Below, piece after piece: positions 1,818 through 10,863 of a DNA stretch of 64,000 bases. The position numbers were made by a program, and so were the translations under genes. This stretch comes from Tepidisphaeraceae bacterium. Its GTDB lineage: Bacteria; Planctomycetota; Phycisphaerae; Tepidisphaerales; Tepidisphaeraceae. Location of the stretch: the NCBI GenBank assembly GCA_035998445.1, contig DASYHQ010000026.1, positions 1-64,000 on the forward strand, in the 5' to 3' direction. Below the pieces are notes generated by a model. It had not been told where the DNA came from and ran no database searches. It was given only the letters and a program-made list of their open reading frames with translations. The first letter of the stretch is position 1. Every line of letters begins with the position of its first letter.

Positions 1818-6248
<4,431 letters not shown>

Positions 6249-6330
6249 GATCGTTCTCTTTTCTCTGGTCAGGCCGGCAACCCAATTGCGGGTTTCCGAC
6301 GGGGTCAAATTTACGTTCGTCACCGAGAGC

Positions 6331-6624
6331 TTACGCGGACCGTTTGCGTTTGCTCCCGGTAGCGCTCTTAGCAATTCGCAGGAACGCCTTTAGCAGGTCA
6401 TTCAGGGCTTGGTCGTCCGGAAAGGCCTTTCGGACTTCCGGCTCCAACTTGGCGTTCTTCGACGCCGCGATCTTTCGTTGGTGCGATCGGATTTCTTCTT
6501 TCGTCGGTTTGGCAAACAGGTTGCCACCCGCACGTTTCACCGGCACGAAGTGTGACGTATCGTCAGGCAGGTCGTACGCCATTTCCTCGGGCGTGAACGT
6601 CACCTTGCGCACGCTATGCTTCAC
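6331..6624 (-). CDS. brnA: BrnA-like / CopG-type antitoxin
   Basis: This 97-residue protein (from GTG 6624, [14 protein letters not shown]) follows brnT and overlaps its end by 11 bases. Its C-terminal third, [26 protein letters not shown], has the periodicity of the ribbon-helix-helix segment of BrnA/CopG antitoxins. An AGGAAGG ribosome site lies about 10 bases upstream of the GTG. An ATG start 21 codons upstream at 6687 is possible but would overlap brnT by 74 bases. In BrnTA systems BrnA neutralises the ribonuclease BrnT and represses the operon. Here it ends 82 bases before rpoC, so read-through from it reaches rpoC. The antitoxin call comes from the tail and the neighbour. Confidence 0.7.
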
Positions 6625-6899
6625 CGGTGTAACGGCCTTCCTCTGCGCGATTCGCTCTGCGAGCAGTGATGATGCGGATCGTTTCATTGCGTTCCGTGTA
6701 GGCGACAGAAATCAGTCGCCATTTGCTTGAGATTCCGATCAACAACCAACGATCTTCATGCCTTGAGTGCGCCGCGTCGTACTCCACCTTGCGATGCAAG
6801 TCATCGAACGCACTCTCGGCTTCGGCGAACGACACGCGATGCTTCCGCAGGTTCGCGGCTGCCTTGTCGTCGTCCCCACTCGAACTTCAGGCCTTTCAA
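6614..6899 (-). pseudogene. brnT: BrnT-type ribonuclease toxin, frameshifted near the N-terminus
   Basis: Read from a TTG at 6899 (GAGGAG ribosome site at 6905-6910) the frame begins MKGLKFEW and then leaves the BrnT frame. One base later the same sequence gives DDDKAAANLRKHRVSFAEA, the conserved BrnT start, and continues to a full C-terminus (RWLLIGISSKW, then RIITARRANRAEEGRY, with the conserved I-x-x-ARRA block). Removing one G from the run at 6874-6877 joins the halves into a complete protein of about 94 residues. Either the toxin is inactivated by a one-base insertion in a homopolymer, or this is a sequencing or assembly error. The TTG overlaps the stop of the upstream membrane-protein gene (TTGA). 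Confidence 0.8.
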
Positions 6900-7092
6900 G
6901 CCTGCTCCTCTTTCGTTTCAGGCACCGACTTGGAGTCGGTGATTGGTTTTACTTCAAAGCCGCGGCGTGATCGGGTCCGAAATTTTCGAACCGCATCAAT
7001 AGCGAGTAACACCAGCAGCGAGGGAACTATAACTAGGCCTATGAAGAACAAGCTCCAAACGAATAGTTCGTTCCGGTGATACTCCGCCTCGG

Positions 7093-7096
<4 letters not shown>
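6896..7096 (-). CDS. small single-span membrane protein in the rpoB-rpoC gap
   Basis: The 66-residue protein has one strongly hydrophobic segment (about residues 12-36, [20 protein letters not shown]) followed by a basic stretch ([10 protein letters not shown]) and a charged tail. That suggests an N-out single helix with a cytoplasmic tail. The start is a GTG that overlaps the rpoB stop (GTGA at 7096-7093), and its own stop overlaps the TTG of brnT. The three reading frames rpoB, this gene and brnT are therefore chained by four-base overlaps. No family was recognised. Confidence 0.6.

Positions 7097-10863
<3,767 letters not shown>

Follow-up and report, generated by a model that had tools for sequence, protein, structure and literature searches.

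In the window, a 64,000-nucleotide stretch of DNA from a Tepidisphaeraceae bacterium, the genes separating rpoB from rpoC include one for a BrnT-type toxin and one resembling an antitoxin gene, and a pair of the same kind occupies the same site in five other genomes. The arrangement is best read as an addiction-type toxin–antitoxin module of the BrnT kind (type II), nested in the RNA polymerase operon, expressed with the operon and decaying in the window, a reading to which we assign a probability of about 0.6. BrnT would cleave mRNA, its partner would neutralize it, and both would ride on the rpoB transcript. The module would persist mainly as an addiction-type passenger, since a cell that loses it is left without antitoxin, and many deletions would hit rpoB or rpoC as well.

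The order on the minus strand is rpoB, a gene for a 66-residue membrane protein, the BrnT-type gene, the antitoxin-like gene and rpoC, all co-directional. Open reading frames and translations bear out the gene content, order, shared strand and coordinates (6331–7096) given in an earlier note on this DNA. The features are as follows.

7093–10863, minus strand: rpoB, an open reading frame of 1256 residues with 71–88% identity to RpoB at 16 other loci.
6896–7096, minus strand: the 66-residue protein, with a GTG start, one long hydrophobic stretch (judged by eye) and an RGFEV tail.
6614–6899, minus strand: the brnT-like toxin gene, frameshifted as assembled; Pfam PF04365 matches the 73-residue open reading frame 6614–6835 and the profile match covers 6617–6874.
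6331–6687, minus strand: the antitoxin-like gene, encoding 118 residues from ATG 6687, or 97 residues if the start is GTG 6624.
6249–6330, minus strand: the spacer of 82 nt from the antitoxin stop to the rpoC start.
1818–6248, minus strand: rpoC, starting at ATG 6248 (the list of open reading frames has TTG 6374 as its start).

The genes had been described as chained by short overlaps. The rpoB stop codon does share four nucleotides (GTGA, 7096–7093) with the GTG start of the membrane-protein gene. The stop codon of the latter likewise overlaps a TTG (TTGA, 6899–6896), but the frame opened by this TTG does not continue into BrnT. The overlap of 11 nt claimed for the two toxin–antitoxin genes is possible with GTG 6624 as the antitoxin start, but it extends to 74 nt with ATG 6687; in the five other loci the corresponding overlap measures 56–86 nt.

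The 73-residue open reading frame matches the Pfam BrnT family PF04365 with 63.3 bits, against a cut-off of 34.5 (E = 2.7e-17), and among solved-structure chains the BrnT profile matches 7vd7, described as 'toxin', with E = 2.3e-20 and gives a weak match to the BrnT chain 3u97 (E = 0.018). The frame of TTG 6899 encodes LKGLKFEW, a BrnT-like beginning, followed by foreign sequence and soon by a stop, while the BrnT continuation (DDDKAAANLRKHRVSF...) sits in the next frame, starting at the GGGG run at 6874–6877 and ending at the stop at 6614. This change of frame at the G-run was overlooked in the earlier note, which had implied an intact toxin. A complete open BrnT frame is absent from the window, whose copy is the sole BrnT place found by profile search in its genome; the frame is unbroken in each of the other carriers (L003, L005, L009, L010 and L148). 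The frameshift may be a genuine mutation or may stem from misassembly, the family search having returned no second genome of the genus of the window (g1) in which the G-run could be compared. The module of the window is probably losing its toxin, with the antitoxin left behind, as a broken toxin frame beside an open antitoxin frame fits toxin decay.

The putative antitoxin (6331–6687) matches no Pfam family at E ≤ 1, the BrnA family PF14384 included, and has no NCBIfam match; an ordinary BrnA was dismissed on these grounds, and the former assignment to the BrnA family does not hold in the strict sense. Three of its homologues also match no Pfam family at E ≤ 1, nor does the homologue in a genome of another family (G109) at E ≤ 0.1. 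The antitoxin was aligned with five homologues from the rpoB–rpoC interval. Its C-terminal part matches a group of antitoxins (A5) that partner BrnT copies elsewhere in the class (hhalign probability 98); A5 matches a further group (A4) with a probability of 96 over the first 38 columns, and the one A4 member scanned hits PF14384 at 3e-7. These successive profile matches indicate that the antitoxin is a BrnT partner tied to BrnA indirectly, through the intermediate group A5; a direct comparison of the rpoB–rpoC antitoxin group (A6) with A4 gave no match. The C-terminus may form a ribbon–helix–helix; the single-sequence AlphaFold model of the antitoxin is a low-confidence fold (pLDDT 72, pTM 0.25) containing helices only and no strand. 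Matches of the antitoxin profile to solved structures, most of them to designed helical repeats (best E = 8.2e-11), others to a galactokinase and a ribosomal protein, were read as composition matches, and a single, weak PADLOC match to a methyltransferase (E = 0.005) was taken as chance. Thus, of the BrnT-type toxin–antitoxin module proposed earlier for this site, the position, the chaining and the BrnT homology stand, whereas the intact toxin and the strict BrnA do not.

With the BrnTA system of Brucella abortus (PF04365/PF14384) the window shares a toxin gene that comes first, an overlapping antitoxin gene on the same strand and a match to the BrnT profile; toxin first is the gene order tabulated for BrnT pairs in PMC11980606. 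It differs from BrnTA in an antitoxin without PF14384, in its position between rpoB and rpoC, in the small-protein gene upstream and in a toxin that is frameshifted as assembled. BrnT pairs elsewhere in the class share the toxin family and, for the A5 antitoxins, the C-terminal domain; in the N-terminal part, however, the antitoxins of both A4 and A5 are of an EYDF type, whereas those from the rpoB–rpoC interval have a different type of 10-residue motif.

A comparison of rpoB–rpoC spacers in relatives, suggested by the earlier note, located this pair in the corresponding interval of five other genomes. The rpoC start was found in 15 of the 26 family genomes searched, giving 16 loci with the window, in which the gap between rpoB and rpoC ranges from 97 to 1305 bp. 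BrnT together with an antitoxin of the window type is present in five of these 16 loci and absent from 11, and also occurs between rpoB and rpoC in G109, so that the pair is found there in six genera and two families. Toxin and antitoxin genes are adjacent and co-directional, with the toxin first, in all six loci, and in the five carriers other than the window they share the strand of the two RNA polymerase genes. Chance open reading frames are ruled out by these homologues at the same site. One family genome (G017) carries two different rpoB–rpoC loci (L014 and L017), perhaps through contamination of the assembly.

The antitoxin type is closely associated with the site. In a search of 397 class genomes, scoring at most 11 candidates per genome, the antitoxin profile had matches in 45, and the six matches of at least 80 bits all lie between rpoB and rpoC; five of these six were used to build the profile, the one from outside being that of G109 (80 bits). 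The next-best match in the class (G019, 42 bits) covers the N-terminal half only and lies beside groES. Across the phylum (391 genomes) the best match besides the window reached 41 bits, and several weaker ones, scoring 31 to 39 bits, extend over the greater part of the profile; of these weaker matches, the five that were opened (L316–L320) have BrnT near and neither rpoB nor rpoC. BrnT itself is more widespread: of the 80 places listed in 237 class genomes, 75 lie away from the rpoB–rpoC interval and five inside it, a listing that omits the sixth carrier (G014), which fell under the completeness limit. A tblastn search of 72,556 plasmid records gave no match to the window antitoxin at E ≤ 0.01 and none to the 73-residue BrnT open reading frame at E ≤ 0.001, and recent plasmid cargo is accordingly unsupported. 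Among the matches listed in a search of open-licence papers, no title concerned toxin–antitoxin genes between rpoB and rpoC.

The 66-residue membrane protein has no Pfam match and, in NCBIfam, two matches far under the cut-off. Its profile finds a copy in seven of the 16 family loci, one of which (L005) is a weak match of 32 bits that has no RGFEV motif. Across the 26 family genomes, seven places in six genomes score at least 66 bits, all of them between rpoB and rpoC (next best 30 bits), a confinement that is partly circular, as the profile was built from those same copies. In L009 (genome G016), two copies are found, one on each side of the toxin–antitoxin pair.

The genes rpoB and rpoC are among the best conserved gene neighbours in bacteria, and the statement that they are nearly always adjacent holds for the control loci, 57 of 58 of which have a gap below 190 bp (the exception measures 211 bp), but not for the class, in which the gap is at least 190 bp in 58 of 135 loci (12 of 16 in the family and 46 of 119 outside it) and at least 400 bp in 50 of these 58. 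The class sample comprises the 16 family loci, 20 from a class-wide rpoC search and 99 out of 100 loci retrieved from other listed places, the retrieved loci being a part of the list biased towards good rpoC matches. The controls are the top rpoC matches among records without a planctomycete title, largely from Bacillota and hence an unbalanced sample. Kept apart as neither class nor control were 21 named loci with a planctomycete-like rpoC (L065–L083, L104 and L143), two of which have wide gaps: L075 and L069, the latter with a GNAT gene. L069 is titled Alphaproteobacteria and was judged to be mislabelled; counted as a control, it would bring the exceptions to two of 59. L144 and L231 stand outside the counts.

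Profiles identified GNAT genes in 29 of the 135 class loci, the BrnT pair in six, an HEPN protein in four, an HEPN partner in six and the small membrane protein in seven. The most frequent content of wide gaps is therefore the GNAT acetyltransferase gene (L204, L155, L160 and 26 others), on the coding strand in each case; one member matches Acetyltransf_1 (E = 2.4e-4). In L168, L174, L177 and L229 the interval holds an HEPN-domain protein followed by a partner of about 90 residues with no convincing Pfam match, possibly another toxin–antitoxin pair. In L178 and L244 the profiles find the partner alone, with no HEPN protein, a parallel to the state of the window, where the antitoxin remains without an intact toxin. 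Another 14 wide loci, unclassified by profiles, include ones with a PD-(D/E)XK gene, a sulfotransferase gene, a 23S IVP-like gene and a glyoxalase-like gene.

The rpoB–rpoC interval of the class is thus a site that accepts small gene cargo, and the module may be there for no other reason than that the interval tolerates inserts and keeps whatever arrives. The range of contents, from the GNAT genes and HEPN pairs to the sulfotransferase genes and the single 23S IVP-like, PD-(D/E)XK and glyoxalase-like cases, agrees with such neutral tolerance; yet all six strong hits of the antitoxin subtype fall in this interval and the profile-classified genes point the same way as rpoB and rpoC in every locus that has them, so that neither kind nor strand looks random. 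We consider this explanation rather improbable, if the best placed of the alternatives to an addiction module.

The addiction-module reading draws on signs of selection on the toxin. In the closest pair of copies (L005 and L009), brnT has a dN of 0.25 and a dS of 1.7 (dN/dS of about 0.15), and the antitoxin gene a dN of 0.42 and a dS of 0.87; 12 of the 25 gene pairs compared gave no dS. The five other carriers share 76–88% identity with the window in RpoB and 71–84% in RpoC, except for a 93% segment in G025, while among the copies identities are 41–71% for BrnT (excluding the window brnT) and 30–53% for the antitoxins. RpoB and RpoC being more alike than the copies of the toxin or the antitoxin, the module evolves fast. 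The window antitoxin has its nearest counterpart in G109, a genome of the other family (46%, against 30–39% for the remaining copies), a hint that antitoxins may have been exchanged between families. On the RNA polymerase tree, the presence of the toxin–antitoxin pair needs four changes, two of which are forced by well supported branches; in the BrnT tree (38 rows), four of the six rpoB–rpoC copies form a weak group, with the other two falling outside it. Neither the copies in the BrnT tree nor the carriers in the RNA polymerase tree form one supported clade. As the trees are weakly resolved, they do not decide between one entry followed by losses and several entries, and a single origin of the rpoB–rpoC copies is possible from the sequences compared.

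Expression with the operon agrees with a scan for the separate promoter and terminator that, according to the earlier note, would isolate the module: neither strand showed a sigma-70-like promoter, and the three terminator-like sites detected are all on the plus, non-coding strand, leaving none on the coding strand. The scan relied on simple consensus patterns, limited to sigma-70 for promoters, and agrees weakly with co-transcription. The module is probably co-transcribed with rpoB and rpoC, and by hypothesis toxin dosage would track RNA polymerase expression.

Taken together, the BrnT homology, the dN/dS of brnT, the recurrence at six loci with all six strong antitoxin hits among them, the lack of promoter-like and coding-strand terminator-like sites, the HEPN partners left alone in L178 and L244 and the three family genomes in which BrnT follows groL count for the addiction-module reading. 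The broken toxin, an antitoxin that does not match Pfam BrnA and has a low-confidence fold, the 12 of 25 gene pairs that gave no dS, the 75 of 80 BrnT places elsewhere, the 11 family loci (of 16) that lack the pair and the trees count against it.

BrnT pairs were also seen near other core genes. In G008 the pair lies directly between groL and groES (L307:621–1125, with Cpn10 and Cpn60 matches), and in G019 it lies between the end of groL and groES, with two further open reading frames after groL (L306:1364–2057). These pairs resemble the module of the window as coding-strand BrnT pairs among core genes in the same family; they differ from it in the operon and, for G019, in the two open reading frames before BrnT and in an antitoxin, beside groES, with a DUF2442 domain. 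In G020, BrnT is downstream of a groL sharing 85% identity with the G008 gene (L305:2342–3887), and an open reading frame that starts like a BrnT partner continues into an unrelated large sequence; a short piece of this groL had no Pfam match. G284 (L265) has a BrnT pair between two genes read as pyruvate dehydrogenase E1 alpha and beta, of which Pfam backs the downstream one only, with a transketolase-type domain, and in G139 BrnT is upstream of mutS. The groL, pyruvate dehydrogenase and mutS cases come from the displayed loci and represent no counted enrichment; many BrnT copies in the same listing sit beside other genes or beside genes on the opposite strand.

The position of the module could itself be functional. 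With the antitoxin supplied from the RNA polymerase transcript, a block of transcription by phage takeover, an inhibitor or starvation would deplete the antitoxin and free BrnT, and selection would retain the module there as a sensor, in keeping with its recurrence at one site in two families, with co-directional genes in all six loci and with BrnT copies close to groL and groES in the family of the window. However, a toxin–antitoxin module anywhere in the genome would also sense such a block, the module is patchy, being missing from most family loci, and its toxin is broken in the window; we regard a sensor as unlikely. A wider form of this idea, which we hold to be equally doubtful, is that BrnT modules of the class settle in core operons (rpoB–rpoC, groL–groES and probably pyruvate dehydrogenase); where the supply of antitoxin depends on the transcription or chaperone machinery of its own operon, hijack or collapse of that machinery would release the toxin. 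Finally, we think it very improbable that the antitoxin, by binding DNA of the interval, adjusts rpoC with respect to rpoB and that the toxin is secondary: the antitoxin frame is open beside a frameshifted brnT and the C-terminus of the protein resembles partners of other BrnT copies, but the intervals compared at five loci share no inverted repeat and the modelled fold is of low confidence.

The antitoxin of this site represents a type of BrnT partner that Pfam fails to recognize. Placed between rpoB and rpoC, a toxin module would tie a growth-arresting RNase to the synthesis of RNA polymerase, and it allows one to ask whether its position is its purpose, the sensing of transcription shutdown, or mere shelter from deletion.
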